64,000 nucleotides of DNA, taken from Gonapodya sp. JEL0774. Its lineage: Eukaryota; Monoblepharomycota; Monoblepharidomycetes; Monoblepharidales; Gonapodyaceae. The stretch is from positions 41,958 to 105,957 of the forward strand of contig JADIIX010000077.1 in the NCBI GenBank assembly GCA_027604505.1, read 5' to 3'. The notes beneath the pieces are model-generated. The model ran no database searches, had not been told where the DNA came from, and saw only the letters and a list, made by a program, of their open reading frames with translations. Of the stretch, positions 34,319-64,000 are shown one piece after another. The first letter of the stretch is position 1. Each line of letters begins with the position of its first letter. The translations under genes were made by a program, and so were the position numbers.

Positions 34319-36070
<1,752 letters not shown>

Positions 36071-38936: not shown

Positions 38937-40845
38937 TCATGAACTTGTTGCTGAGAACTCGGACATTCTCTGGTGTAGAACAATAGCGAGCTTGGAAGCG
39001 TAAGGCCACCGCTTTCCGAAACTTCCAAGGAATACAGCTCGGGTAAAATGAGATTTCAGGCCGTTGAATCTTGATGAAACATGACGGACCCACCCATCCA
39101 GCACCTCAATGGCCCCATAAATCAGATCTAGCTCGCCCTTGTCACCCTCCCGAATCAGGCCGAGGAGCTCGAATCCCAAAATGTACAAGGAGAACCCAGC
39201 CAGCGGGCACCCAATGTCGACCCAGTCAACACCACAACTTTTCGACGCTTCAAGGCAGACACAACTTTCAATAATTGTATGATCCAATTTAGCACATAAA
39301 TGGCTCGTTATGTTGACGAAAGTCTCATTGTAAACAATAGACAGTGAAACAATCAACTCACGCCAACTCCAACGCTGACTTCGCATTATCATATCGCTGG
39401 GCGGTGTCATTCCTTGGAATCATGCGTTGCATCAGAGTATGGAAAACGAGCGGGACTGTCAGGGAGCGTCCAGCACTCGAGTACATGTTGCTCATCGAAA
39501 CAGTCAGAGACCGCGAGATAGCAGTGTGCCCCCAAGATGGGATCGCAAAAAGATGATGATTTGCTGTGAAGGGTTATTGCGCAAAATCCAATTCAGAAAG
39601 TGCCAGGAACTGCCATCTTCTCTGCTCACACTCGCGGTACTTTTGCAACTTCTGACATTCTGAGACTTTCCACCGCCTTGTTGCTTCGCTCTCTGCATGA
39701 TCAGCTGCTAAACTTAAACTTGACCTGACTGTCTCGATCCTCCGCTCCTCGCTCGCAAACATGGCGGTGACATCAAGCAGGTGGTGCGTCTCAGCTGTTC
39801 CGGGATAGTTAATGGGTTTGTCGTCATACGCTTCTGGGATCCAATCACGGTCAGGGATCGTAGCACGCAAAGCAGATACAGGGGACACATCGAGAATCGG
39901 CGAACGGCATGTGATCCCTGAGATGAGCCGATCGAGGTGCCAGAGGCCCAAATACGTGCGTAGATTCTGTTCTGCTTCAATCCATGCGTGCGTGAATGGA
40001 GGTTGTGGGATGGTCACCTCAACATCGAGGTGCAGCTGCTTGGCAAGCACAAACGCCGAACCGAGGTAAGTGTTCGCGGCTTGCATGTTGGGCTCGTGTT
40101 CTGTGATGCTGGCGAGGGCAAGATGAATTAGACCCCAAACTTGCTGGATAGTGGGTGCGGCAGATTCAAGGACTGGAACAACCAATCGTCGGGCACGGAT
40201 GTAGAAGAAGTGACGGTCATATATTGAGGTGGGCTCGCTCAAATTTTGAGATGGGAAAGTATGTCCCGCGAAAAATGGTGCAGCGAGTGCCAACATAGAA
40301 TGGAGAAGAAAGGCCAGGGTAGCGGGGTTATCTAGTGCATGCGCGAGGAAGGAAGGCGGATAGATGAAGGGAATATGTGGGGCCACAAAAGTAAAGTAAA
40401 CCTGGAGCAGAACCTTCAACGCTTCTGGGCTCGGTAAATCGATGTGACCAGACGAGAATTCGGTGTGCTCAGAACTCGATGTTGAGGGCGATATCAAGTT
40501 CTGGCGGGTTCGGTCTGCAACTTTCGATCTAAGGAAGGACATTTGTAGAATATGGGCCACATGACCTTCACGGATCTTCTGCGCTGTGAGTAAGTAACGA
40601 AATGGCAGTTGTTGCGGTGGAGTCCTACCACTCTCCCTCCCAAGTCCTTGGGACGGGAACTGGAGGTGTTCCCACGAAGTGGGTGTCCCGCCAATTGCGC
40701 CGGTCACTGATTCAATTGATCTTTGTACGTTTCTAGTATCAAAAACGTTGCTTGGTGACGCTATGGAAAGATTGAATGGAATGCAAGAACGGAATGCAAA
40801 AACTGCGAGTCGTTGGTGAACCTGCACCTTTACGAATCGATTCAA
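38937..40845 (-). CDS. Fungal_trans domain regulator, copy 1
   Basis: Protein with the fungal-specific transcription factor domain (PF04082). The long exon 40845-about 39600 has HIDLPSPEALKVLLQVYFTF followed by VAPHIPFIYPPSFLAHA, then HLALASITEHEPNMQAANTY and LGSAFVLAKQLHLDVEV, and AEQNLRTYLGLWHLDRLISG. An intron at the KYREC junction is followed by an exon with MYSSAGRSLTVPLVFHTLMQ and NDTAQRYDNAKSALELA near 39490-39370. The last two exons read SCGVDWVDIGCPLAGFSLYI, LIYGAIEVLDGW, then FGKRWPYASKLAIVLHQ, ending at 38937. The same exon plan is seen in copies 2 and 3. No Zn2Cys6 cluster was found upstream. Possible 5' exons lie at about 41080-40974 (LLRLERGMRIEQYPKDRPST) and 40895-40840, so the start is uncertain. 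Confidence 0.75.
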
Positions 40846-44691: not shown

Positions 44692-46165
44692 ATGTCTCGA
44701 CCATCCCCAAAGTTACGGCGCAGCCGAAGTCTCCCACCAAATTACGAGCAATTGAACGTTAACCAACATCGCACCTATGGCTCCACATCCGTTTCACCTG
44801 TAAACCACCTGCGCACACAAAGTTACGAGTCCTATCGCATCGCAAACCCACCCAGATATCCTCAAATCGCGAATGCACAGAATCCCTACCAATCAACTTA
44901 CATTTCACTTGCCCCAATTTTGTTCCGCCGAGCAACGGGTGAAACCCACGCGGGGGATGTCGCAGGCATGGGAGCACAGACGCCGTCCCCTCGATCCGCC
45001 TCTCCTTCAGATATTATCACAAAACTCCGCGACAAACTTGATCATGTTGGCGTGATCCTCGAGTCACGCGGTGCGCATGTAGCCGTGCTGTGGCTCACAA
45101 CTGTGGACGTTGTCGCGGTGTTGACAGAGATACTCACGTCTTTGTGGACGGATCAACAAAAATGTAGGGACGGGACGGAATTAAATGCCCAAACTGGAAT
45201 TGTAAAGGGGAGTTGGAGAGCGGTGGAGACGGCGATGTACATACTGCATTGGATCTCTTTGTGTGAGTTGATCTCTCTCGTGCTCAAACAAGAGAACACA
45301 CACTCCAAAATTGTTTTTCCGTCACCTTTCAGCAATCCTTCTCCTTTTTGTCCTCGAGATTCTTTTGCGTATTCTCGTTGCGCGGCCTTCACCCCTCCAC
45401 TTCTTCTCGTCCCTATACCACATCCTTGACACATTGGTCATCGTGACGTCTTTAGTATTGCAAATTGTCTTGGTGCCTGGGAGTAAAGGCGAGGAACTAG
45501 CATCTTTGATTATCATTTTCAGGTTTTGGAGGGTAAGTTTTCGAGTATCATACCCCTCTTGATGTATCGTTCATGCGCACCACTTCCACTCACCCATGTC
45601 CGGTCAGGTCATTCGTCTGATCGAGTCTGTCACCATGCTCGAGTCCGCTCGCACCTCTGAACGCCTGTCTGTTCTCCACCTCCACGCGGAAGCCCTTGAT
45701 CGCCACCTCACACAGTGCAGAACTCGGATTCATGTTCTGAAGAACATGTTAAACGAGGTTGGAGTGGAAGTGCCCCATGGCTGGGAAGAAGACCCACGTG
45801 AAGAGGAGATTTGTGGCGAGTACAGACCGGAGGATACGATGGGCAGCCACATGGCATCCGGCGAGCATTGCGGTTCGCGCCCGAGAATGACCCCATGCAC
45901 GCAGAACCCCTACGACCAATCACGGTCATACCGTCGTGTATCCTCCTCGGATACATACCTTGCTCCAGCCAACTCTCTATCGCCGTTTCATTCTGTCGCA
46001 GACTCTGTCTCGTACCTATCATTCGGGTCGGAACCCAGCACCGCAGGTACGGAAGACCCCGACCTCAACTCACTCGAATGCGAGGCCGACACCTATCATC
46101 GCGCGGGTATGACTAAAGCAGCTGGAGACGTGCTGGTACCAGCAGCACCACGCTATGATCTTTAG
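44692..46165 (+). CDS. Voltage-gated proton channel (Hv1 family)
   Basis: Four-helix voltage-sensor protein that conducts protons outward across the plasma membrane. Three exons, 44692-45262, 45333-45532 and 45608-46165, join in frame to 442 residues. A disordered N-terminus of about 125 residues precedes S1 (HVAVLWLTTVDVVAVLTEIL), with Asp139 where the selectivity-filter Asp112 of human Hv1 lies, and Glu146. S2 is SILLLFVLEILLRILVA with the conserved Glu199 and a basic Arg203. S3 starts YHILDTLVIVTSLVLQIVL; Asp223 matches human Asp174, but human Asp185 is replaced by Gln234. S4 is IIIFRFWRVIRLIES, the RxWRxxR signature, with three gating arginines and an intron between the second and third. 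A coiled coil (LHAEALDRHLTQCRTRIHVL) follows, as in the dimeric animal channel. The last 120 residues form a Ser-rich tail. Confidence 0.93.
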
Positions 46166-46573: not shown

Positions 46574-49537
46574 TCATCCAACTTTCTGTGCATACACTGT
46601 CCAGCCCCACGCTACCACACCCACCACAACGCTGGTCAGTCCCATGCCAACCGCAACCCTTGTCACCGGAGTATTTGGGATAGGGAAAGTGTAATACGGT
46701 GAGCGGCGATCTGAGCCGAACCACCATGCGAGGTACCATTCCGCGGCGCGTTCGCGTTCGCGGGAGCGCGCGGATCGAACGTTGATGTGGGAGAATTTGC
46801 TGCGCCCGCGAGGTACGTTGGCGTCGAGATCTAACTGCTGATAGTGGTGGTCCAAGTCTGCACAACGCTGAGCATTCGCTGCAGAGCCTCGAGCAGGATC
46901 CCACTCCCTCGGCACATCCACCCAGTTCTCCGACGGCGCTCGCCATGTGAGTATTGCTGACGCACCGCCGACCGTCACTCTCGGCTCTGGTTGGCCCTGA
47001 GCAATGCCCGAAAGAACGGAATCGTACCCCCCGCCAGGTCGTGCATATCGTGTGATGTATTCGGCGGTGTACGCGTCCGTCATAGCAATCACGAATTGTG
47101 TGATCCAGTCGGCGGATATGTCGATGCTTGGATCTCGCGATATGATTTTGTGAAGCACAGACGGGTCGAAACCGGTGTCCCAACTTTCATCATCTTCTTC
47201 TAAGCCAGTTCCCTTGCTTTTAACCACCCCTTTAACAGCTTTCTCCACCTCCACCTGCCTCGCCACCACCACACCCACCGCTGCCCAAACCAGTCCCACT
47301 GCACCTGTACCAGCCAGCAACACATCCCATACCCGCTCCACCCACGCTCTGTCAGCCACATCGTGTGCAAATCCGGCAACAAGCCACGGTACACAAGGGT
47401 GGAGACCGGGCCACCCCGAATCGCGCGCGTGGTGCAGCAAGGCGTGGAGGGCGGGTTGAGCAAGGTGGATGCAAGGGAGGAGGAGGTCAAGAATGGCCAT
47501 GGTGCCTCGGAAGGAGCATAGGGCGTGGTCATAGAAGATTGTATCACAGAGCGTGACGAGTACTGCTGACGCAGCGAGCTGCGATTTAGGATACATCAAA
47601 ATAATGAGGGCGGCAACCGAGTGAAGGCCTTGATAATAGTGGAGGTGCGGGCGGAGATGTAGAAGGATCCGGAGATGGAGATGGAGAAGGCGGTGGTGTG
47701 GTGCTAGCGGTGCGGGTGGGGGGGCTGAAGTTTGGTGGAGCGAAACAAAGTAGGTGGTGAGCGTTCCGGATGGTGTAACTTACATCGCAAACTTCAGATT
47801 CGACGGTCTTTTATTTCTCAACTCACACCACTGAGCGAATCCTCGTCGTGCGTCGGCAAGAACCTGCGGAGCATCGCGGGTCGGTGGGGGCATGTGAGGG
47901 TCTTTGAGCTGGATCGAATGGTGGGAGCCAGCGTTTGTACCACCGGCTGAGGATTGCGCAACAGGGTCCAAGTTGGACTCCCAATCTAGATTGTCCAGCT
48001 CAGAAGATGTTGTGTAGTGAGAGAGCAGAGTGGAGAGGAGGGGGTGGTGGAGGGGGTTCAGTCGGTATTGGTCTGACAGATTTGAAGAACACGGTGACGG
48101 TTGGTGAACGGGTGAGATCGGTATGGTGGCCGACGGGGATGGTGAGGGTAGTAGAGCATGAGCTTGGGGATGTGACTGTGAAAGTATGGTCCAGGAGTCA
48201 GAGTCCGAAGGTGGGGAAGGTGTATGTGAAGGAGAGGGATCTGACTGGGTTGCGGTGGAGGTGGTGTGGTCGTGTGGAAGTTGTAATCGGAGGTTTTGCG
48301 CATTGAGGTCCCCATTCTGTACTACAGCAGCACTCACCACCAGATCCTGACTCAAATCTGCATCTGGTGGATTTTCCGCTCCTTCCAGAGTTAATTCGTC
48401 AACATCTTCCGAAGTCCACGCCTTAATCGTAGTACTTGCGAATATCTGATTATCCTTCGGCGCCTTGTCCGGAGTCTCCATCGAGTCCGTCAAGCTGTAT
48501 TTCGATTCAGACTTGGCCCTCAATTTATCGATCCCTCGTCCCTCAAGTTGTCCATCCAGACCTGACTTCGTCTCCATGTCCCCGAACGCAACGACTTCGA
48601 TAACGCTCAGACCTGAATCCATGCCAAACTCCACCGGCTCAGTCACCAATTGTGCCATACTCTCCGTGTTCACATCCAAATTAGGTTTCACGAATTCATT
48701 ACCATCCACATCCGAACCAGTGTGGACATTAAGCTCAACTTCTTTTCCGTCAAGGTCAATTCTCCTTATGTTTGCACGATGATCGTTGTTAACCACCACG
48801 GGTTCCCAAATTCCACAAAGAACCAACCACGCCCTAGCTCGCATATCTGAATCCTGAAAGCCACCTGGTTGAAAAGCAATCTTTTGGAGTTGAGCGATAT
48901 CACGGGCAGTGATGGCAGAGAGAATGTTTCCGCGCACTACTGTGGAAGTCGGAGTGGCAGCAGGGGAAGGGGGATAGGGTGGTGGGAAGGAAGGGGCTCG
49001 GGAAGAAGGAGAAGATAAGACAGAGGGGAGAGACGTGAGGGCCGTAGAAACGGAAGACGAGAGGGTGAAGAGAGCGGACCAGAGAGAGGGCAGAGCGGAT
49101 AGGTTGTTGGTGAGAATCGGAGGGACCGCGGTTACCGAGGGGATTGAGGGGAGGGCAATACGGGAGGATAGAGACGATAAAGAGGAAAGAGAGGAGGAGA
49201 GAACAGACGCGCTGCGCGCGGAGGGAGAAGTGATGGAGCTAGCAGAAGCGGGTGATACTGTTGTCCCGGTTGCGGTCGTGTTCGTTGCCAATGCCGGGAC
49301 CGCATGACGCTGTCTGTGCCGGTGTCGTAATGGTCCTACCGACGCATGCGGCTGCATATGCGGTGTAGAGTTTGTTGACATGTCGGCAGCGATTCTGCCA
49401 TGCGTGGCATCATCTCCATCAGCTCCCACACGGGCACCTTCCCCTCCACTCGACCCATTCTCCTCATCTGTCCATTCCGCTTCCCGTGCCTGCTCCATTT
49501 CTCGTTCGATCTCTTCTGCTTGGCTCGTCTCCATCAT
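46574..49537 (-). CDS. TBC1D20/Gyp8-like Rab GTPase-activating protein
   Basis: Membrane-anchored TBC-domain protein related to TBC1D20, which acts on Rab1 and Rab18 at the ER, and yeast Gyp8. The first exon starts at 49537 and is Ser/Thr-rich. It contains ITARDIAQLQKIAFQPGGFQ and DMRARAWLVLCGIWEP (about 48905-48805), the start of the TBC fold, then a long acidic Ser/Pro insert, and RDAPQVLADARRGFAQW near 47870-47830 (the RD..QV..D.. motif). The second part gives LLHLRPHLHYYQGLHSVAAL, where YYQG carries the glutamine finger, then PWLVAGFAHDVADRAWVERV and a C-terminal membrane helix, VAVGMGLTSVVVGVVAWGWT, ending at 46574. By eye, the donor after KFA (47790) and the available acceptors near 47735-47710 leave the YYQG part one base out of frame. 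A seven-C run lies at the junction. The arginine-finger motif IxxDxxR is also less clear. Confidence 0.82.
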
Positions 49538-51687
49538 GAAATTGTTTCCGCCCCCTGCTCCAGAATGGCGGCCAAATGATTCAAGGAAAGCAATCTGGAA
49601 GCGGAAAGGCTATGGTTTCGATAAAACCTGCCTGTTCCGGAAGAGAGATGCTCGAAGGTGCTTGAATGGGCAGTCCCTATTCATTGTAAAACTGGGCCAT
49701 CATCATCCCACTGCATGTTAATTATGTTGCCGTACCACCACGCAATCGCAACCACCCGCAAGACACAATACAACTGAGGTTAGACATGCAATACACAATT
49801 TCTTCCTTCCACAAATGTTTTCGCGTGCAATCGATTGTTCACCTGCAATAAATAATGCACGTAGAATTACCAAGATGGTTATAACAGCGGGAGATCATGT
49901 CACTGAGAGAGCTGAAGGGGACATTCATCCAATCCAAGAATATGAATTAAGTCTTGCTATAAATGGTGAGCGGAGAGCCCGCGGAAAGGTAGAATGTAAC
50001 ACGAACCCCCGAGGGAACGAAACTGAGCCGAGCTTCACCTTGAAGCACCATTCCACTCACTGTGTTCCATTGTCTGGAAGCTTGCTCCTAGATCATACCG
50101 TATGCACACGAACGCTGCAGTGTGTACCCACATTCCGTCCACATTTCCAGACAGGACTCTCCGAATCATCGAAACAATTACCTCTTGATCACTCACTTGA
50201 GCCTGCCACAGGGATATATGACGTTTCTGTTACTGGCAACGCAGTCTATAGCTGCTGGAACTTTGCCTGTTAGCCGGCTTCGGACCATGCTCCGTGCAGG
50301 ATTCTGCATATGCCCGCATGAGGAGATTCCGGACATGCCGATGTCAAGTGAAGCGGAAGGCCAGCACTTTTGGATCCAGTTTGCGAGGGATCGCAGAGCC
50401 ACCGAGAGCAGGAGCAAGTCATTTTGATCCTGGGCCCCAGATGTGGTGCTTGTCTGTGTATGTCCTCAGCCAGGCTCATGTCCTTGGGTTGATCCCAGCT
50501 CTCGCAGTTCTCACGCAATCCCTTGCATTTCTTGGCACATCACCATGTGCGACAGCAATGGTTCCATGGGTGGCTGTGGTTAATTCAGACTATGGTCGGC
50601 TCGATCGTCAGATAACTACTCCAGGGTGAAGGAGTAGGTCCCTCGAGTCCGGTGAGCTCTTCCGTATCTTCTGTAATCTGTGGAACATTGGATTGACTGC
50701 TTTTTCTCTTCTTCAGTGAATTGAAGCCCGAAGGCTTGGGAAAATGGGAATCGTTGAAGTTTGATTGGTGCCTAGAGTGCAGATGCACGCGGGTGTCTGG
50801 AATCCTGTTCCCCACAGTCCACGGAGGAGCAAAATCCTTCCATTCATCGTCTTCATCATATAGTCAATGGTGGACCTGCTCCAAGCCGCTTGACATCCAA
50901 AACGTCTCGGCACTACAGAGTACTGGGTTGTGACCCGCACAAGTCGCGGTGATCTGAGCTTTGACAGTGAACATTGAAGATCCCGATTTTTCACGCATAT
51001 CACATCTCAGCTCACATTGAATGGGCTCACATGATTGCCACCGAAGCAATACCCTGGGTACGTGAGTGCTCATCTATCCAGATGGACTTGAACTGGAGCG
51101 ACATATTGACTTGAATCTGACTTCCCCAGCAACAAGATAAGCGGTTCGGTTGCAGCTACTTGCGGAAACAGTAGAATGGTCAAAGCACATAGTTGCGTGA
51201 TGTCGATAATGTACCTTCCAAGGTCCTGCTGCTCCGTCGGGAATGAATGTCTTCATTGTCGACGTAGAACACAAATTATCATCAACAAATTGTCATCTTT
51301 GAGATCTTTGCATCGGATATAGATGTCTTCGAGCACCTTAGTTACCATGCTCGGTAAATCTGACGTGCTTCCTGCTGCCGAATGTCACTGCTGATCCAGT
51401 TGTAAGTCCCCGTTCCTGACGCCCTATACCACTACACATTGAGGAATTGTCTAAGTGTCGGCTGTGGTGGAAGGGTCCAGTCGGTTTTGGGTTTTGTCGG
51501 GTTGCTCCAGGCAGGCTTGACCTGAAACAAGGAAAATTTGGAACCTTCCGGCGGCGGCACCTGAGTGAGTGGGGCAAAATATACCCTAAAAACAAAGTGT
51601 TGAGATTGATTTGATTGTGCGATTAGAATCGACTCTCAGCGGGAAATGGACGATGCAGTTGGGTGAGGATCTTGCTCTCACTTTCTC
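49538..51687. other. Mostly unassigned
   Basis: About 2.15 kb. A plus-strand frame of 152 codons at 49815-50273 has no recognisable motif. The right part should contain the promoter and any 5' exons of copy 2, but I could not find a Zn2Cys6 cluster. Confidence 0.35.
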
Positions 51688-53753
51688 TTGCTATATGCGT
51701 TCTATTTCACTACTTCTCGCTCCGGAAGTGTTACTGATCTGCCAAAGGGTGATGTGGGCTCTGCTTCGATCGAATCAAATCTTGAAGTTGGCAGAATTCC
51801 AGCATCTTCCCAAGCACTTGTTCCTGGGTCGGATCAGAAGACTTCCATAATGTCATCCATAAAACCGACCAGTGATCTTAAACTACAGTTACCCCCTGTG
51901 TTGGTGACAAACACTGTTCATGGGACACCGATTTTATCAGGATATCTCCCTGACGCGTCCCAAGGAGCAGTCTCACACCGCGTGAGGACGCCATACCAAC
52001 GATCCCCATCTTCACCTTTCCTTACTGCACAGCAATATGCCAGTGAAAGTTCCACGGGCACTCTTCTCCAAAATGCCTTCAATCCCGCTGGAAATTCGCC
52101 ATTTCGTTGGGGATACTTCCCCGAGCATCCCCCGTGGGGAACCTCCTTGGGACAGACAGTGTATTCGTCACACCAGATTGACTTGCCCAGTCCGGACGCC
52201 TTGACGGCTTTGCTTTCGGCTTACTTTGTTTTCGTGGCACCACACATACCTTTCATTCATCCACCCTCCTTCCTCGCACATGCTTTGAAGAACCGCGCCA
52301 CCATGGCATTTCTCCTCTATACAATGCTGACTCTCGCTGCACCTTTTCTCACGGAAACTAATCTCCCATCTCAAAACCCGAACGAGGACCTGTCACAATT
52401 TGACCGCCACTTTTTCCTCACCCGTGCCCGACAAATGGTATTGTCAGTCCTGGAGTCTCCCACGCCAAATATCCAGCACGTTTGGGGTCTCGCTCACCTT
52501 GCCCTCGCCAGCATCACAGAGAGCGAACCCAACTTGCAAGCCGGGTACTCATACCTTGGTTCTGCGTTTCTGCTTGCAAAGCAGCTCCACCTCGACATTG
52601 AAACTGCAAACCCGCAGCCTCCACTTACACCTGCATGGGTTGAAGAAGAGCAGAATCGGCGCACGTACCTGGTCCTCTGGCACCTCGATCGGCTCATCGC
52701 TGGCATCACCCGTCGCTCCCCAATGCTCGACGTCTCTCCCGTTTCTGCTCTACGTGCTCCAATCCCCGACCGTGACTGGATCCCAGAAGCCTTCCAAGGC
52801 AAACCGCGTGAATATCCGGGCACCAGCGAGATGCAGCATCTGCTCGACATCACGACCATGTTTGCGAGCCAGGAGCAGCGGATCGAGATGGTGCGGATGA
52901 GTCTAGGAAATGATCGCGGCGAGATTGAGGAAACGTGGCGATGGAAAGTGTCTGAGTGTCAAAAGTTGCGTAAATACCGGGAGTGTGAGTGAAGAAGACC
53001 GGTATTCGTTTGACGTTTTGTTGGTGTAACTCATCAAGGAGAAGGCTGCGCATCATCAACCAATACACCCTTTGATCAGCAAATCCCCACCTATTCCCTT
53101 CTGCTCTCTGGAGAGATTCTGTAATCTCGAGATCTGCTGTGTCTCCGCCGGATAATCTGTACGAGTACGCTGGGCGCTCCCTGAGCGTTGCTCTCTCCTT
53201 CTACGCCCTAATGCAACATATGTTGCCTTTGAATGACGCCGAGCAAAGATTTCAAAATGCCCGAGATGCATTGGAGTTGATGTGAGTTTTGTGTATCACC
53301 CGTTTACCGTTTTCATATTCGAACTCTTGTCCAAGAGCGAATCCTACTTGCTTCCTCGCCCATGATATATCCCGACGAAATATGCAATAGACGCTTCTGC
53401 CTCAATATTTCAAAACATTTTGATATGAGCTGGGCGGATATCGGATGCCCTCTGGCCGGTTTCTCTGTGTTTTCTGTTGCCCAAGAGCTTCTCCAAAATT
53501 CAGGTGAGGACAGGAAGGCAGCTTTGGATCTCGTGTATGCAGCAATTGAGGTGTTAGATGGGTGAGTTGAGGTTCTTGGCGATCGAGACACTGAGATTTC
53601 AGGATTGTATTTGAAGTGGGCATTCGTTCATATCTGAAACGTGACTTGTGACTTTTCATTACATTTTGGAGATTCGGCAAACGGTGGCCCTACTCTTCGA
53701 AGCTAGCGAGACTACTCCACCAGAGCTTGTCCGTGTCCTTGACAGCAAAGTGA
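51688..53753 (+). CDS. Fungal_trans domain regulator, copy 2
   Basis: Paralogue of copies 1 and 3. The main exon is open from 51688 and homology to copy 3 begins near 51715 (KGDVGSASIESNLE), probably just after an intron acceptor. Domain landmarks are HQIDLPSPDALTALLSAYFV with FVAPHIPFIHPPSFLAHA, then VLESPTPNIQHVWGLAHLAL, HLDRLIAGITRRSPMLDVSP, and RWKVSECQKLRKYREC at the donor near 52988. Further exons give YEYAGRSLSVALSFYALMQH with NDAEQRFQNARDALELM at 53155-53283, then CLNISKHFDMSWADIGCPLA with GFSVFSVAQELL at 53398-53560, and FGKRWPYSSKLARLLHQ, ending at 53753. The coding exons are intact. A 5' exon encoding a DNA-binding domain was not found, so regulatory function is inferred from the family only. 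Confidence 0.77.
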
Positions 53754-55949
53754 CAGCCAAACCAATGTACTACAGCAAGCTCAACGTTCCATTGTTTGAT
53801 CGCCGTAACACCACATGAGCCAAAGGTTCCCACACAAAGAAAGTTGTGTCATAATCCACGGAAATGTCTAGTACAGTATTTCGTGCATTCACTATATAAG
53901 AATGATATCTTTTCGTCAAACTACATGCGTACATGAGAAAGATTCATCATTGTGGTAGAACTGTTCGGAATTATCGAATTATTTTAGTGATCAACCTGCG
54001 CTCACACCCGTTCTGCGGAATCCGGAAGCGGGGGGTGCCCGTTTGCGCCAAAAACTCTCACACAGACTTCACTGTGGTTGCCCCGCTTCCTGGTGTACTC
54101 ACAGAAAGAAGGGAAACTATTGAGGTTGGACGTGGCCGAAAATCTCGGCAAGGGCGAGCGTGCAATGGTAGGTAACACAGAATCGAGCAATATCGGATGA
54201 GTTAAACAAAAAGGTTCAAAACACGATACTACCCGGGAATTTCTTATCCTTCGGTTGTAGAACAACATCAAACAGATCAAAATGGGGGACTCATCAAGTT
54301 GCATCGTACATTTATCTCTGCAATTGAATCCCCGATGTTCGAGAATCGGAAGCGACGAAAGAAAATCAGCAGGGGAAAGGTACCAAAAGGGAAATGATAC
54401 CCCCTTTTATCACATCATGGAGTGAAAGGCCGTTTGGTACGCTGACCCCCAATCCGTGTTCGCGAATTCGGGAGAGTCCTCATTTGGAAGGACGAAGATG
54501 AACAAAATCTCTCTGTGAGAAGAGGAATTTTTTAAAATACAGAGACTCGCCGAGAACATTTGTTGATACAAAACGAACCATGTCGCTTGTGTTGATGTAG
54601 GTAGTGGCGGTAAACGCGAAAAATTGACTTTGTCGAATTCATACTTAATTTAGAGCGCTCAGTTGAGTTTCGAGTGGTGTGTAAGAGGAATAAAGAGGAA
54701 AGAGGGGGTAGAACGGATCGCCTGACGCGAGATCTGTAGGGAAGATACGTTTTCACGCACATCCACCTAAATTCTTACTTACCTATGCTTTCACTGACTG
54801 AGGATTGACAGAATGGAGGTATTCAGTTATAGCCTTTGAGAGTGGTGCCTGTGTGTCCTCAGCTATCCTAACTCGTCCTTGGGTCCGTCCGATTTGCCTG
54901 GATCCCACATGTTCACACGCTATCCGTCTAGGATTCTCGCGCTTTCTCCCTGCGACAGCAAGGATGGCGGTGTGGTTTGTTTTAGAAAGTCCTTACTGAA
55001 AACCGGGTCGTCCTACAAAGTGGAAGTTAGCAAACGAAATTTTTAGTTTTGATAACCACCACATCGGTTCGAGCTCACCAAGCAGAGTGTTGGTATCGAG
55101 ACTATGATAGGGTGCATGTTGGATTGGATTCGGCGTAAGATGCCGTTGTTGGTGTGAAGGACATTGGCAATTTTCACGGTCGACTCATTTTTTTCACTAA
55201 ACAAACGACTGTCACCATATTGAAAGGTGGAAGGAAGCAAAACTCTTCATCGACCAAGATTTCAGCACGATGTCTTTTGGAATACAACCAGTTGCACCCA
55301 GAGTAGTACACAACCGGATTTCAAAGATGTGCAGATCACATTCCAGCGAAAGAATAATGCGCGGTTGGGAATGATTGGAGCTCAGATAGATTTTCTTCCC
55401 AGTTTCCTTCCCTGCAGGTTTACAATGGGCGAACATCGTTTCACCGCCACAGCCTTGAGATTGATCGACAAATATCAAAGTCACCGAAACTTGGATCACA
55501 AATAAGGCTTATTTGCGAATGACATGGAAGGTCCGCGAAGCACGAAGAACGTGTGCAAGTTGGAGAACAGTAGAAGGCACTTGGTTAAGCCTGATGTACC
55601 CTTCCCATCCTCGTTCCCAAGCCACTATATGACTTCATTGTCGAATAGACAGACCTTTGCATACTGTGACCAGAGAACAGCAGTCTGCCGATCTTGCGTT
55701 GGATACTTCGAGAAAAAGCTGTGCAAATTCCTTGAATCGAACATAACTCCACTCTGCCCACTTCCACAGCTCCGCCAGACGTTAGCCCTATTCTGGATGC
55801 CTTCCGCGAGCCCACATCGAGGAACTTTCGAAGTTCACGCCAGGAGATGTATCTGGTCAGGGTCTGAACCATTTTGGCGTGTGCTGGGCTGTGGGGACTG
55901 ACCAAAAACAAACAGCCGCGTTTCTTTCTTTAAAACAAGAAACTGAATT
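53754..55949. other. Unassigned region between copies 2 and 3
   Basis: About 2.2 kb. Plus-strand frames at 55227-55505 and 55524-55901 and a minus-strand frame at 55585-55911 are open, but none contains a motif I recognise. It should hold the copy 3 promoter and any 5' exon. Confidence 0.35.
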
Positions 55950-58643
55950 TTGCCCAAAGTTTCGACATTCGAGGTCGTGCACCTGGCTTGGCACAGTACA
56001 AGTCTGAACGTTTTCACGGTGGAAAATAATGGATGGGTTGTGAGGAAGAAATCTGTTCTCCCACTTCCAATACACCACTTTCACTTCACGATTTCTCACT
56101 CTAGTACTTATGTTGAATCGGCAGCACAAGGTCATGTAGGGTCTACCGCGATCGAATCGAATCTAACGGTACCCGCGACCGCAAGCTCTGGATCGGATCA
56201 GAACCAGCCTCCCGTATTACCTGCAAGGAAATCAACCAATGCTCTCAGGCTACAAATTCCAACTGAATCGGCGACCAGCGTTGGTGGGATGCCGATTTCG
56301 TGGGGACTTCTCCCTTACGCATCCCAGGGACCAGCAACGACGCTGCTAGGACAGCAAACACCATCTCCGCCTTTCTCCAATACCCAGCAACGTGTCGGTG
56401 AAAGTCCTACAGGCAATCGTCTCCAAAACATCTTTAATCCCGCTGGAGATTCGCCATTTGGTGTGGGATACTTGCCCGAGTTTTCACGAACATCCCTGGC
56501 ACAGACAGCGCATTCTTCAGATCAGATTGACTTGCCCAGTCCGGACGCCTTGACGGCTTTGCTCCCGGCTTACTTTGTTTACGTTGCACCACACATACCT
56601 TTCATTCATCCACCCTCATTCCTCGCACACGCTCTCAACAACCGCGCCACCATGACCTTTCTCCTCTACACTATGCTGACGCTCGCGGCGCCTTTTCTCA
56701 CGAAAACTCATCTCCCACCTCAAAACTCGAAAGAGGACTCCTTAGCATTTGACCGCCACTTTTTCCTCACCCGTGCCCGACAAATGGTATTGTCAGTCCT
56801 GGAGTCTCCCACGCCCAATATCCAGCACGTTTGGGGTTTAGCTCATCTTGCCCTTGCAAGCATCACAGAGAGCGAGCCCAACATGCAAGCCGCCAACGCA
56901 TACGTCGGCTCGGCTTTTGTGCTCGCTAAGCAGCTCCACCTCGACGTTGAGGCGGCCATCCCGCAACCACCACAAACACCTGCATGGGTTGAAGAAGAGC
57001 AGAATCGGCGCACGTACTTGGGTCTCTGGCACCTCGATCGGCTCATCGCTGGCATCACCCGTCGCTCCCCGATGCTCGACGTCTCTCCCGTTTCTGCTCT
57101 ACGTGCTCCAATCCCCGACCGTGACTGGATCCCAGAAGCCTTTGAAGGCAAACCCCGTGACTATCCGGGCACCAGCGAGGTGCAGCATCTGCTCGACATC
57201 ACGACCATGTTTGCGAACCAGGAGCAGCGGATCGAGACAATACGAGCAAGCTTGGGGAACGATCGCGGCGAGATTGAGGAAACGTGGCGGTGGAAAGTAT
57301 CCGAGTGTCAAAAGTTGCGAAGATACCGGGAGTGTGAGTGAAGAAGAGGATAGTCCTTCTCAATCTTTTGTTGTTGTGCAGTCGACAAGCCCAATTGGGC
57401 GCCCTTCATCCGACCGCCCCGCCCCACCCCACCCTTCCAAAAAAAACCCACCGCATACCCCCATTCGCCAGCAAACCCCCACCTGTTTCCCACCACGCTC
57501 CAGCAATACTCTCCAATCTCGGGCACTCCTTCAGTTCCAGTTCCACTGGACCAGGTGTATAAGTACGGCGGGCGCACGCTGAGCCTCGGGCTCTCGTTCC
57601 ACGTCCTGATGCAGCGCATGATACCCATGCACGACACCGAGCAGAGGTTTCACAACGCACGTGTGGCGTTGGAGTTGGTGTGAGTATGCGCGGGTGTGTG
57701 CCAAGACGGGGCGACCCCACGCTTTTTGTGCCGGCCACCGGAACTGATCCTTCCCCAATTGGAATCTCTGCACATAACCACCTGACCGCGCCTCTTCCCT
57801 ACCCCTACCTACCCCCCCCCCCCGCACGCGCCCCGCCCCCCCGCGGGGGGGGGGGGGGCGGCGCGGGGCCGGGCCGAGCGCCCCAACACCCCCCCCCCGC
57901 CCACCACCCCCACCACCACTCCCCCATCTCCTGCCCTTTGCCACCGCTCCACCCCACCTGCACATCTGGGGTCCCGTTCCTTTCCCTTTCCCTTTCCCCC
58001 AGCCGCTACTGCCTGACCACCTCGAAACACGTCGGCGCCACCTGGGTCGACCTCGGGTGTCCTCTCGCAGGCTACTCTGTGTTTTCCCTGGCGCACGCGC
58101 TGATGATGAATGCGGGAGAGGAGAAGGCCGCGGCGGTGGATCTGGTGTACGCGACGGTGGAGGTGTTGGACGGGTGAGTTGCGTCGGGCAGGGAATGGAT
58201 GTTTCTTTCTTTCTTTCTTTCTTTCTTTTTATTTTGGGGGGGGAAGGGGCGGGGGGTCGGTCTTCGTTGTTTGTTGGGCTCGTTCTTCTTCTGTTCCTTG
58301 CGTCTGCGCCTGCTTTTATAAACGGAACAGGCGAAGTCTTTTGCTACTTTTAAATTCCCTTCCATTTTACCTTCTTTTCGATAAACAAATCTCTTTCCTC
58401 TTGCCTTTTCTCCAACTCCGTCATCTTCATTGTGGCGCCTGTGTATCCCCTTCCCAAACCTTTTCCGATCTCCGATCTATTCCCAACCCACCTCACTCTT
58501 CCCTCTCTCGCGACCTCCCTCCACCACATTCGTCCCCTTCCCTCCACCTCCCCCGCCTTAGCTTCGGCACCCGCTGGCCCTACGCCTCCACCCTCGCCCA
58601 GACCCTCCACCGCGCCTTGTCCTCCTTCATCGCCACCCCATGA
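55950..58643 (+). CDS. Fungal_trans domain regulator, copy 3
   Basis: Closest to copy 2. The main frame is open from 55950. Homology to copy 2 starts near 56115 after an acceptor-like CTAG, with GHVGSTAIESNLT, and continues through SDQIDLPSPDALTALLPAYF, VAPHIPFIHPPSFLAHA and VLESPTPNIQHVWGLAHLAL to RWKVSECQKLRRYREC at about 57335. Later exons give VYKYGGRTLSLGLSFHVLMQ with HDTEQRFHNARVALELV (57555-57680), then TTSKHVGATWVDLGCPLAGY with SVFSLAHALMM (58015-58172), and FGTRWPYASTLAQTLHRAL with SSFIATP, ending at 58643. Two introns are much longer than in copy 2 and are filled with G/C runs and a TTTC repeat; the later exons are also GC-rich. Several blocks are nearly identical to copy 2 in DNA, which suggests recent duplication or gene conversion. 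Confidence 0.77.
57820..57900. repeat. G/C homopolymer cluster inside a copy 3 intron
   Basis: Runs of about 10 C, 7 C, 14 G and 8 C within 80 bases, in an intron that is compact in copy 2. This may be real low-complexity expansion or an error-prone stretch. Confidence 0.75.
58202..58230 (+). repeat. TTTC microsatellite
   Basis: About seven tandem TTTC units in the last intron of copy 3, followed by a G run. Confidence 0.9.
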
Positions 58644-60675
58644 TTCCCCGCCCTCGCTCTGCGGAGTGGGGGTGCCCGCGCCGTGCGTCCTCGGTGGGCG
58701 GTGTAGGGGGGTGTTGTGAATTTTCAAGGGGGCGGTGGTGGGGAACGGGTGTGGCGTGAGAGTACCAAACGGGACCGCTGTAAGCCACCGTGGCCCCGTC
58801 GCTCGTCCAGTGCCACCTCGGTCCGGTCCTGCCGGTGCTCGGCGGTCCCCCGCGTCCCCACGCATCTGTACCGCCCGAGCGGCCGCCGCGGGTGTGCGCG
58901 AGTGTGTGTGCGCGAGTGCGCGTGTGCGTGCCTGTACCCGCGTTCGGTGGACCTTTTGCACCGGGAGTGTACCGCCTTGATGCGATGGCGCATGGCGGTG
59001 GGGAGTGGGGGTGCTGGTGAGGGTACGGTGGTGCCCCGGATGGTGGAGGGGAGGACCGTCTGCGGGGTGAGGTGGGCGAGGGTGCATGGTGCGAGGTCTG
59101 GTGCGGCGGGGTACGGGTTTTGCGGACAGTGCCGGTGTGGACGGTATGTGTTGAGTGTTTACTTTCCTCTCTATGAACTTTTATTAGATCTTTCCTTACT
59201 ACCCAAACTATGTAATTGCTTTCATCGTATGTATACGTAACGTCGTTCAGTCTAAACGCCAAAACAAAATACAAAATGGCGGGACAACCACACGATGATA
59301 ACGGTCCACCTCGTCCACTGTCGCGTCATGTGACCGATCTGCACCACCCCCGGCGCGCCGGCGCGTGAACCCCGCATACCCCTTTTGCAGGGCAGGTGGA
59401 ACGTGCGTCACGATAGTGGTGGGGGGGAGGTGGCGCGCGTCGTGACGTGGCAAAGGCCGGCCGGCTGCGTGCGACGTGTCATGGGTTTGGTGCAGCGTGC
59501 GGCACCGGCGTTCGGGCGCGGCGCGCGTTCGGCGTTGAGGTGGCCGACGGCCGTGGGATGGGGTGTACGTGTGCCAGCGCGCGGTGGCGGGGCCGATGGC
59601 GCGGTCGGTCGGGGTTCGCCACAGTGGTGTGGCTGGCACGGACCACGGACACCGGAGCATAAGTGTGGGGCACCCAGACGCCCCAGACACCCGACGGCGG
59701 ACGGCGGGGGAGGTGGGCGGTGCGGAACTGGGGATGGGATGGGGGGCGGGCGACCGGTGCGGGTCCAGTCTCCACGCAAAACAAGGTAAAATCCAAGCAT
59801 CCGGGCTCCGGGCTCCGACCACCGACAACGGACACGGAGGAAGAGGCGAGATGCGAGATTCGAATCGATGGTGTCTCGGAAGGAACACGGAACACGGGCA
59901 CATGGAACATTGCAAAACACGGAAACGTGACACGAGCCCATAGGGTTCAAGGAAAGGACAGACCCAAACCCTGACGTAGACGTGGTCCCAGGGGGGGGTG
60001 AGTCCCCCCCATGTCGTGTCCGTCCCCGTCCCCACCGTCCCTCGGCCGGGGTCCACCAGCCATCAGGCACCAGGCACCAGCCCACCAGAAACCTTAGCCG
60101 ACGTCCAACCCGCCGTCCCCCCAGACCGCGCAGAGCCTGTGTGGGTTGGTGTGAGTTGAGTGTGAGTTGAGTGCGCGCGGGGGACGGGGAGAGGGGTGAG
60201 GGGTGAGGGGAGGCGTGTGGGTGACTGGGCGCGGGGGGCGGGGGGGGGCTGGCACCCCGTCCCCGTGAAGATCGTCGGAACGGGGAACGGTCTGACGGCC
60301 ACAGAGGTCGTGGGGGTGGAGGTGGGCAGAGGGCGGGGACTCGGGACTCGGGACTCGGGGGTGGGAGTGGGTGGGAGTGGGGTGGGTATCCAGGGCGGGG
60401 GGGGAGGAAGAGAGCGCGTGTGACCGGCCGGAGGGAGGCATCATGGCGGGAGGGAAGGAACCCATGGTGGAGATGGGGATGTGGCCACAGATTTTGCGCG
60501 AGATGCGAACGTGTGGAGGGGTGGATGTGCCTGTGCCTGTGCCTGTGCCTGCCGCTTCCGTGCGTGTCGTCCTCGTCCCACGGCCATGAAGAGGTGGAGG
60601 TGACTTTGTTCCTTGCGGCGTCCTCTTTCCCAGGTCTTGGACCAGGTTCCCAGGTTCCCGTCGGGGTCGGGGTCA
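58644..60675. other. GC-rich low-complexity region
   Basis: About 2 kb in which all six frames stay open for long distances because of base composition. The longest frame (59408-60679, minus) is mostly Pro, His, Arg and Ser with no motif. I see no gene. Short repeats include six-base TGCCTG units at 60527-60552 and repeats of GGGACTC near 60340-60360. Confidence 0.5.
60527..60552 (+). repeat. TGCCTG hexanucleotide repeat
   Basis: About four tandem six-base units within the GC-rich region. Confidence 0.85.
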
Positions 60676-61517
60676 TCACCGGTCGGTCGTCGTGGTCGTG
60701 TCCGACGACGTCATCCCTCCCACTCCCCCTCCCGCGCTCCGCAAGCGCACCGCCCTGGCCCTGTCCCTGTCCCTGGGCGCGCCGGTCTCACGTTCCCGCC
60801 CGGCCTTTCTGCCGGCCTCCCCATCCCTCTCCCGCCCCCCCACCCCCTTCGTTTCCACATCGTGGACTCTCCTCTTGATCAACTCGATCTCTGCAACGAC
60901 TGTTGCGTGGTTGTGGTCGACGCGGGACTCGAGGGAGGTGAGACGGTGTTCGGCGGATGTCATGCGGGAGGAGAGGTCGGAGACTTGCGTGGGGGGTGGA
61001 GGGTGTGGTGTGGTGTGGTGTGGTGTGGTGTGGTGTGGTGGGGTTGGGTGGGCGGGGGGAGTAGTCGGAGAGTGTGGAAGGGCGGGGGCGGGGTGCACAG
61101 GAGAGGCGAACGAGTTGGGGTCACCAATGAAAACCGAGACCCCGGTCGGCGAGGGAACGAGGAGCAGGCACATCACGGTTGGGTCATGCATGGGGCAACC
61201 AACGCAAACCAAGTGGCCGCGCTTCCCCTTCTGTCACTCCGTCTGGGTCTGGGTCGCGTTTCCGGCTTCCGGCTTCCGGCTTCCTGCGTCCGTCCCCAAT
61301 CCACGGTCCCTCCAGCCATGCACGCCGAAACCCCCAAGGCCCCTCGTCCGCTCGCACGCTCGCAGTGGAACACACCTTCGTTCCTCAATGAGCCATAAGA
61401 CTTGTAGAGGACGTAGGCAGCGCCGATGGCGACCCCGGCAGAACCGGAGAGGGCGAATCTGAAGAGGGAGGAGGGACGGAGGAATGCGAGAGCAGGGTGG
61501 GGAGGGGGAGCGGACAT
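60676..61517 (-). CDS. Hypothetical small membrane / coiled-coil protein
   Basis: Family not recognised. Exon 1 starts at 61517 with MSAPPPHPALAFLRPSSLFR, then a membrane helix FALSGSAGVAIGAAYVLYKS and YGSLRNEG, ending at a GTGTGT-type donor near 61375. A second exon, with acceptor probably near 60990, encodes a clean coiled coil (SDLSSRMTSAEHRLTSLESR followed by HATVVAEIELIKRRVHDVE) and a basic Arg/Gly tail ending at 60676. An N-terminal anchor plus a coiled coil resembles small mitochondrial or ER tethering proteins, but that is only a shape comparison. The intron contains repeats and the acceptor is uncertain. If the exon starts further upstream, the pentanucleotide repeat at 61003-61041 would encode a His/Thr/Pro tract. 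Confidence 0.5.
61003..61041 (+). repeat. TGTGG pentanucleotide repeat
   Basis: About eight tandem five-base units. They lie in or beside the intron acceptor of the minus-strand coiled-coil gene. Confidence 0.9.
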
Positions 61518-61802
61518 TGGGGGGAGTTGGTGGGTGAAGTGGGTGAAGTGGGGGCAGTGGGGCAGTGAAGGGGACAGAGAGGGAGAAAGAGGGAACCAAG
61601 CAAAAGAACAAGGCCACGTCAGTGCAGGGTGCAGGGTGCAGGGGTGGGCAGGGAGTGGGTGTGGCACAGGTGCTGTGGACAGGAGCAGGAGGGACGCAGG
61701 GGATGTGCAGGGGACACATCCGATCGGCGGCGGTCAGAGTGGGACTTCCCCCTCCCATCGTTTGGCGATCAATCAGTCAGCACTCAGCACTCAGTCAGCC
61801 GC

Positions 61803-61833
<31 letters not shown>
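61803..61833 (+). repeat. ATCA microsatellite
   Basis: Nearly eight tandem ATCA units, ending nine bases before the start codon of the PG-repeat gene, so probably within its 5' leader. Confidence 0.9.
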
Positions 61834-61841
61834 CCAGTGGG

Positions 61842-62989
61842 ATGATGATGATGCATCCCTCTGGTCACTCTGGTCCCTCTGGTCCCTTGGCATATCTCAA
61901 CAACAAACCAAACTCAAACTCTCCCTCTCGTTCAACTCCCAAAACTCGCCTTCCCCACCCGCACTCTCCCACATCTAAAAACACCCGCTCATCCATCTCA
62001 ATCCCTCCTCACTTCACTCACTCTTCTCTCTCGTCTTCAATCTCACCGCCTTCAATCCCAACCAGGTACCAGACTTTCCTCTTATCCCGAAACTCTCAAA
62101 AGGCTTTCAACTCAACCGTAGACAGATTCCACATCCCCGAATCTCAGAAGAACGCTCTGGCTGGTCCAGGCTACTACTACAAGGACCACCACCACCCCAC
62201 CAAGTCTCTCTCTAACTCCTCCTCCTCCTCCTCAACCACGACCGCCACCTGCTCTTCCCACGACCCCGCCTTCGCATCCACCTCCCCCAGATTCCCCCAC
62301 CCCGCGCCCCCCTCCCCCACAATCCGCCGCCCCCCCGGCCCTGGCTCCTACGAGGTCGCTCACGATCCCAGGTGGAGCTACTATCTCGACGTGAAGCCTG
62401 GAAGCATGTTTGCTGGGTCGGTCGTCGCGGGTGGTGCTGGTGCGGGTGCGGGTGGAGGTGGTGGGACGGTCAAGATGGGGACAACGTTCACGGGACCGAG
62501 GGCGAGGACAGGCGGTAGTATGGCACGAGCGGTGGATGCTGTGGCCATGCCGGCGCCCACCCCAGGTCCTGGCTCGTACGACGTGGTTCACGAGGTGAGT
62601 GTCCCATGTTTCCGATTCCATCGCCCGCCCCAACCCTAAAACCCCAATCGTCACGGATGTGTCTGCCTTTGCTTCGTCACACTCTGCCCACTCTCTACAT
62701 ACTCTCCGAACCCCACCGTCCGTCACTCCACACCTTTGGTCTCTCCCCCACCACCCACCCGACACACCCCCCCGACCCCGCACCCACCTAGCCCCTCCCC
62801 CCACCAACCCACCTCCTCCGCCGCCACCACGCCGAGATCGCAGAGCGGAGAAGGCTCGCACGCTGGGAGATGGCCCGGGCGGTCGCGGGGGAGGGAATGG
62901 GCGAGGGGGAGGGAGGGTTGGGGATGGGGATGGGGATTGGCGGGCCAGAGAGGGAGAGGGCGAGGAGGGCGAGGAAGGTGGGGTTTTAG
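61842..62989 (+). CDS. Sperm-tail PG-rich repeat (SHIPPO) protein, flagellum-associated
   Basis: Protein with the PGPGSY-type repeats found in outer dense fibre and sperm-tail proteins (STPG/ODF3 family), which bind ciliary and flagellar microtubules. The start at 61842 is the first of four consecutive Met codons. After a Ser/Pro-rich N-terminus, the exon encodes SQKAFNSTVDRFHIPESQKN followed by LAGPGYYYKD. Next come RRPPGPGSYEVAHDPRWSYY, a Gly-rich spacer, MGTTFTGPRARTGG, and TPGPGSYDVVHE, ending at a GTGAGT donor at 62595. A second exon ending at the TAG 62987-62989 reads AEIAERRRLARWEMARAVAG with a Met/Gly-rich tail; its acceptor is not fixed. Three PG repeats are visible. Such proteins occur only where cilia or flagella are made, so the host should produce flagellated spores. 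Confidence 0.82.
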
Positions 62990-63286
62990 GGGTGGGGTGG
63001 GGTGGGGGGGGGGCAGGCGAATGGGAAAGGAAATGGAGCGATAGGGATGGATAGGGAGTGACAGAGGAGAGCGGGAGGGACCAAAGAACAAAAAAAAACA
63101 GCAGGCAAAAACGTTTTCACTTCAGCCACGTTGAAATCGGTATAAATAAATAAGTGTTCAAACTCGGGGGGGCGTGCACGAACCACCCACCTGCCCCCAT
63201 CTTCACCTCCCACCACCATCCCATCCCATCCCACCGCGACCCGCATCCCCACCTTCCCCACCTCCGCCCCCACCGCACGACCCGCC

Positions 63287-63638
63287 ATGGCGGACGCGCT
63301 GACGCCATACATGGACAAGACGGTTCAGATCGTCACCAACGACGGTAAAGTTATTCTCGTGAGTTGGTTGGTGCGCGGGGACGGGACGACAAGCGACCAG
63401 CCCGATGGGGGATGGGAAGGCGGGAAGAGGAGCACCGTTTCCCTTCACAGTCGTCCAGAGAAGCAGGAGCGCGCTCACCCCCCCTTCCCGTTCCTTCCCC
63501 CCCCGGACAGGGCACGCTCAAAGGCGTCGACAACAGTGTCAACGTCGTCCTGCACGCATCGTCCGAGCGGGTGTTCTCACCCGACGAAGGGGTGGAGACC
63601 GTGCAGCTGGGACTCTATATCGTGAGGGGGGACAATGT
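63287..63638 (+). CDS. LSM8: LSm8, U6 snRNA-associated Sm-like protein (3' end unresolved)
   Basis: Small Sm-fold protein specific to the nuclear LSm2-8 ring that binds the U6 snRNA 3' end. Exon 1 (63287-63358) reads MADALTPYMDKTVQIVTNDG and KVIL. Exon 2 (63511-63638) reads GTLKGVDNSVNVVLHASSER, VFSPDEGVETVQLGLYIVRG and DNV. Sm1 and Sm2 motifs are complete, including the terminal IVRGDN. RVFSPDEGVE is diagnostic of LSm8 among LSm proteins. A GTGAGT donor follows exon 2. The usual C-terminal 25-30 residues should be in another exon; an acceptor at 63727 gives a poor match, so that exon may lie beyond the low-complexity end of the window. Confidence 0.92.
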
Positions 63639-64000
63639 GTGAGTTGGGCGGGCCTGGGACGGGGGGGGGATGATGCCGTATGGAGATGATGGGATGGGAG
63701 TGTCGGACCCGACCCCGAGGTGTGCAGTCACTTTGGTGGAATTTCAAAGATTTGTCTCGTGGGGTTCTCGGGTTGGAAAGGCGGACCACAATGACAAACA
63801 AAGGAATGTGGATCCACTTCCACGTTCCACATGCCACACGGACCGGGACATGCGACGACGACCACGACCATACCATGACAGACCGCACACTCGTCCCTCC
63901 TTGCTCACTCTTCACCGCACGTCCCCAAACACACCCCCCACCCACACCCCAGACCACCCCCCCATACCCTCCCACCCCCCCCCCCCCGCCCCCCCGGGGG
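63639..64000. other. LSm8 intron or 3' region and window edge
   Basis: Contains the LSm8 intron and possibly its last exon. The final 60 bases are C-rich runs ending in a G run, similar in kind to the low-complexity block at 57.8 kb. Confidence 0.5.

Follow-up and report, generated by a model that had tools for sequence, protein, structure and literature searches.

Hv1-type voltage-gated proton channels have been described from both animals and fungi. A mid-S1 aspartate and the motif RxWRxxR in S4 are named as Hv1 criteria in part of PMC8804609, and RLWRXX(R/K) is given for animal and fungal Hvs jointly in a passage of PMC10657467. For the fungi, sections of Zhao and Tombola 2021 (PMC7910559) report the S4 motifs R.WR..K..G and R.WR..K..E in SlHv1 and AoHv1, and describe fungal Hvs as having a cysteine near Ile127 and as being without the zinc histidines (the 140 and 193 positions). 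The same sections give lengths of 183-309 residues for the 16 proteins of a cladogram and 204-262 for further ones listed, and a chytrid Hv is already in print there, that of Spizellomyces punctatus (XP_016610604.1). In parts of the review of Chaves et al. (PMC10377628), the third S4 charge of fungal Hvs is given as lysine, with one glutamine exception, and a C-terminal coiled coil is described as usual in Hv1, two unicellular Hvs reportedly being without a predicted one. Here we describe an Hv1-type gene in a 64,000-nucleotide stretch (hereafter the window) at positions 41,958-105,957 of contig JADIIX010000077.1 of Gonapodya sp. JEL0774, an organism placed by NCBI in Fungi, chytridiomyceta, Monoblepharomycota.

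As judged from sequence, the locus very probably holds an intact gene that encodes a voltage-gated proton channel of the dimeric Hv1 type. The gene lies on the plus strand at 44692-46165 and has three exons, with an ATG at 44692, a stop codon that ends at 46165 and a predicted product of 442 residues; both introns are of the GT-AG type (70 bases, GTGAGT...TTTCAG, and 75 bases, GTAAGT...GGTCAG). The first-pass annotation of this DNA had proposed the same three exons, two introns and 442 residues, and re-splicing bears this out. The product is identical in every letter to a 442-residue public protein entry (NCBI) entitled "Voltage-gated hydrogen channel 1 [Gonapodya sp. JEL0774]", and the gene has thus already been predicted and named in the public database. 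No paralogue was found in the same genome by a protein search with the 442-residue protein as query (E up to 10), and one of the 23 exon matches listed in a PF00520 profile search of that genome is exon 2 of the Hv1 gene. Hv1 in Gonapodya or in zoospores was absent from the titles and abstract openings among the literature matches listed.

Equivalent positions were taken from a multiple alignment with human and mouse Hv1 fragments and are given in human Hv1 numbering. The S4 sequence RFWRVIR at residues 254-260, aligned to human Arg205, Trp207, Arg208 and Arg211, has the RxWRxxR pattern with its tryptophan, and the inner counter-charges and phenylalanine of Hv1 are all present (Glu199, Asp223 and Phe196, the last at the human Phe150 position); Glu146 falls at the human Glu119 position. 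Two earlier readings are supported, namely the Hv1 plan of S1 Asp, S2 Glu, S3 Asp, RxWRxxR and coiled coil, of which the S1-S4 residues align with human and mouse Hv1, and a glutamine, Gln234, at the human Asp185 position. The S2-S4 part was also aligned to Hv1 by phmmer. S1 alone received no score in pairwise phmmer (-1.0 and 0.1 bits), and the assignment of the S1 aspartate, Asp139, therefore rests on the multiple alignment together with a profile match spanning S1. Substitutions relative to human Hv1 are Lys157 to Arg203, Glu171 to His220, Asp185 to Gln234 and Asn214 to Glu263, and no histidine of the Gonapodya protein stands at the human His193 position in the multiple alignment. By its sequence, the protein has the features that define an Hv1 proton channel, and is a somewhat divergent member of a known family.

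The Pfam scan of the 442-residue protein gave an Ion_trans match that covers only profile positions 33-117 of 241, i.e. a voltage-sensor domain without a pore domain, as in the predicted model, and it detected neither a pore domain nor a phosphatase domain. In the predicted structure one helix extends over residues 243-307, and the long tails are modelled at low confidence. All ten heptad a and d positions of the predicted coiled coil (residues 277-311) are hydrophobic, a result equalled in 1 of 20,000 shuffles of a 50-residue stretch, where the stretch and the residue set had been picked after reading the sequence. Architecture alone is no proof of conduction, and with 442 residues the protein is unusually long against the published fungal Hvs (183-309 and 204-262 residues), and its long tails are of low confidence. 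It might instead be a voltage-sensor protein that, like TMEM266/HVRP1, passes no protons and signals via its long N- or C-terminal tail. This seems distinctly unlikely, since Asp139, Trp256 and the three S4 arginines are retained, and it was the S1 aspartate that a comparison of human Hv1 with TMEM266 singled out as the selectivity filter, according to a passage of PMC10377628.

Among solved structures, Hv1 channels have the top sequence score, 25 bits ahead of the next: phmmer against PDB returned 3wkv, a chimera of mouse Hv1, at E 7.9e-11 and 5oqk, human Hv1, at E 1.3e-9, with the next sequence at 0.003, and identity to human and mouse Hv1 is 33-35% in the aligned fragments. A homologue search with residues 100-320 returned only the Gonapodya protein itself from 3001 candidates, none of 102 candidates was retained in one with S2-S4 (E up to 10), and one that combined a masked window row with nine invented S4 probes returned three of 227 candidates (P0002, P0003 and P0004). 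No relative was confirmed among 35 and 31 pattern matches in scans of viral contigs and genome contigs, respectively. Because no named fungal Hv was recovered in the homologue searches, the tree was built without the published fungal Hvs; it has 11 rows, and the supports of its key branches are 65-78. These supports, and a structure comparison in which Hv1 is level with several other voltage sensors, would leave room for a member of another voltage-sensor family (a phosphatase sensor, a sodium or calcium channel repeat, or CatSper) having been mistaken for Hv1. That is highly improbable given the 25-bit lead of Hv1, the absence of pore and phosphatase domains, and the occurrence together of the S1 aspartate and the S4 tryptophan.

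Table 1. Exons, introns and Hv1-type features of the Gonapodya gene (positions in the window; human Hv1 numbering for equivalents).
Feature	Positions	Strand	Remarks
Exon 1	44692..45262	+	long N-terminal region, S0-like helix, S1, start of S2
Asp139	45106..45108	+	aligns with human Asp112 (mid-S1, selectivity filter)
His186	45247..45249	+	aligns with human His140 (zinc site)
Intron 1	45263..45332	+	70 bases; frame read through it reaches a stop at 45427-45429
Exon 2	45333..45532	+	remainder of S2, S3, S4 to the second arginine
Glu199	45356..45358	+	aligns with human Glu153
Asp223	45428..45430	+	aligns with human Asp174
Gln234, codon CAA	45461..45463	+	aligns with human Asp185
S4 charges and Trp (R254, W256, R257, R260)	45521..45616	+	interrupted by intron 2
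Intron 2	45533..45607	+	75 bases, phase 0, splits R257/V258 within S4
Exon 3	45608..46165	+	last part of S4, coiled coil, C-terminal tail and stop codon
Predicted coiled coil, residues 277-311	45665..45769	+	five heptads (heptad count; model)

An unusual residue of the Gonapodya protein is Gln234, which occupies a conserved gating position of Hv1, that of the acidic outer S3 residue, in place of aspartate or glutamate; this position was not counted here among the family-defining features. In the relevant passages of Randolph et al. (PMC5065317), the acid at Asp185 is described as a residue that Hv1 alone conserves and that matters for the open state, and mutating it shifts the threshold strongly in the positive direction, with proton selectivity unaltered; shifts of +65 mV (Ala) and +105 mV (His) are given in an R1H background, and the substitutions covered there do not include glutamine. 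An insect Hv1 has glutamate at the equivalent of Asp185, as stated in part of PMC8804609. Of the rows aligned here, human and mouse have aspartate, P0002 (from Nannochloris, a green alga) and P0004, which closely resemble each other, have glutamate, and P0003 has glutamine, so that glutamine and glutamate each occur in two of the four non-animal rows (the Gonapodya protein included), a sample that is small and non-random because the search was designed in a way that favoured S4 sequences of the pattern RxWRxx(K/R). Histidine at the 171 position is common to all four. A single base substitution separates the CAA codon of Gln234 from GAA (Glu), and two separate it from a codon for Asp; it may have arisen by such changes. 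That Gln234 reflects an error in sequencing or assembly, or a decaying gene, can be given next to no credence, because the remaining frame is intact and P0003 also has glutamine there, even if a single genome is concerned and GAA is one change away. By analogy with the published mutants, the Gonapodya protein would be a proton-selective channel with a positive-shifted threshold, unless this is compensated. A natural glutamine at this position, shared with P0003, offers a ready test of whether an Hv1 channel requires the acid or can compensate for its lack.

From the computed gene structure, motifs, sequence architecture and candidate partners, we infer a scheme for dimerisation, current, gating shift and cellular role. 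Two subunits would pair via the C-terminal coiled coil, with each voltage-sensor domain acting as its own pore. Depolarisation would move S4 outward, carrying R254, R257 and R260 past Phe196; Glu199 and Asp223 would be the inner counter-charges, and in the path so opened Asp139 would select protons. Gln234 would remove the outer S3 counter-charge that stabilises the open state in human Hv1; selectivity would be kept, and, barring compensation by other residues, the protein would open at a more positive threshold than it would with an acid at this position. In the cell the channel would probably let protons leave passively, balancing charge and pH for an NADPH oxidase, raising the pH in favour of CatSper in zoospores, or both.

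Close kin of Gonapodya sp. JEL0774 form swimming spores, and in animals Hv1 is an established partner of CatSper in sperm and of NADPH oxidases in phagocytes. Candidates for both kinds of partner are encoded elsewhere in the genome. A CATSPERB_C (CatSper-beta) match of 109.7 bits is found on contig C178 (10655-10957, minus strand); its absence from all 14 control genomes is expected and adds little, because the controls are bacteria and archaea. When three voltage-sensor exons of the genome were compared with PDB, a CatSper2 chain was near the top only for the exon on contig C137, where it is the best single-sensor match (59.1 bits) and level with multi-repeat sodium channels; for the exon on C63, CatSper3 is far down the list (24.8 bits), and for that on C316 no CatSper is among the best 60 of 90 PDB rows. 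PF15020 (CatSper-delta) has no match in the genome, nor in any control, and is thus uninformative. An NADPH-oxidase exon on contig C38 (within 142500-147500) is closest to DUOX1 (114.3 bits), and is one of several reductase-type genes, as the NAD-binding domain that these oxidases share with ferric reductases (PF08030) matches eight exons on six contigs. Frames with EF-hand-like text, read by eye, lie near the C38 oxidase exon.

Hv in sperm and NOX are mentioned in parts of PMC10377628 and PMC7910559, respectively. CatSper subunits are reported from some flagellated fungi in passages of a 2026 paper (PMC13358043), in the main text of which a term look-up found none of Hv1, HVCN1 and proton channel. 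A zoospore role of the Gonapodya Hv1 may be put forward as a hypothesis, a link to motile spores being possible via the CatSper-beta match and the CatSper2-like exon, and the co-occurrence of the gene with that match and the DUOX1-like exon makes a role in zoospore pH testable. A wider proposal, which we regard as speculative and on the whole unlikely, is that zoosporic fungi keep an animal-like Hv1 (arginine as third charge, a zinc-site histidine) that has lost the outer S3 acid. Such a channel would need strong depolarisation or a large pH gradient to open, and its partners in the swimming spore would be CatSper and a DUOX-type oxidase. Together they would form a flagellar circuit for pH and calcium that goes back to ancestral opisthokonts, and the Hv1-CatSper pair of sperm would descend from it in animals.

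The immediate neighbourhood of the gene was surveyed by a Pfam scan of 71 of the 73 stop-to-stop frames of at least 150 amino acids in the window (the other two being Hv1 exons), plus eight shorter ones. The Hv1 gene had been described as next to flagellar-type genes, and this was not borne out, in that none of the 79 frames matched a flagellar family at E 0.01, a survey which genes with short exons could escape. Matches above the curated Pfam cut-offs are to RabGAP-TBC (46577-47779, minus), Fungal_trans (three frames), DUF599, actin (two frames), PP2C, SAP, RSB_motif and amidase. The three Fungal_trans frames are closely similar and lie within 18 kb (39577-40845, minus; 51667-52989, plus; 55947-57338, plus), and are a local gene family on both strands around the Hv1 gene. 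The two actin frames (35203-35998, plus) match the C-terminal part of actin (82.7 and 46.8 bits), belonging to actin or an actin-related protein. Over the last 8 kb (56001-64000) the G+C content rises from about 0.48-0.55 to 0.60-0.635, and there are many overlapping long frames, none of those scanned having a Pfam match. At about 28870, a few unresolved codons in a row, next to low-complexity sequence in the translated frames, probably mark a small assembly gap.

Compared with animal Hv1/VSOP (human HVCN1, 5oqk; mouse chimera, 3wkv), the Gonapodya protein has the same S1 aspartate, the same residues at the Phe150, Glu153 and Asp174 positions, RxWRxxR, a C-terminal coiled coil and a histidine at the 140 position, and likewise has no pore domain. 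It differs in having Gln for Asp185, His for Glu171, Arg for Lys157 and Glu for Asn214, in being without His193, and in its longer tails. P0003 (environmental, 348 amino acids) shares with it Gln at 185, RFWRVIRL in S4, ILES preceding S1 and His at 171, but has Arg at the 140 position, and the two are 29% identical overall. P0002 and P0004 (the latter environmental) share arginine as the third S4 charge, His at 171 and LES preceding S1, but are shorter and have Glu at 185 and Ala at 140. With SlHv1 and AoHv1 the protein shares the S1 aspartate and a cysteine near the human Ile127 position, Cys158, four residues past that position as counted from Asp139, and with AoHv1 also the glutamate three places past the third charge (R.WR..K..E). 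It differs from both in having arginine (Arg260), not lysine, as the third S4 charge and a histidine, His186, at the 140 position (none at 193), and at 442 residues is longer than the published fungal Hvs (183-309). An arginine and a histidine where the reported fungal channels have lysine and no histidine may mark an earlier-branching form of the fungal channel.
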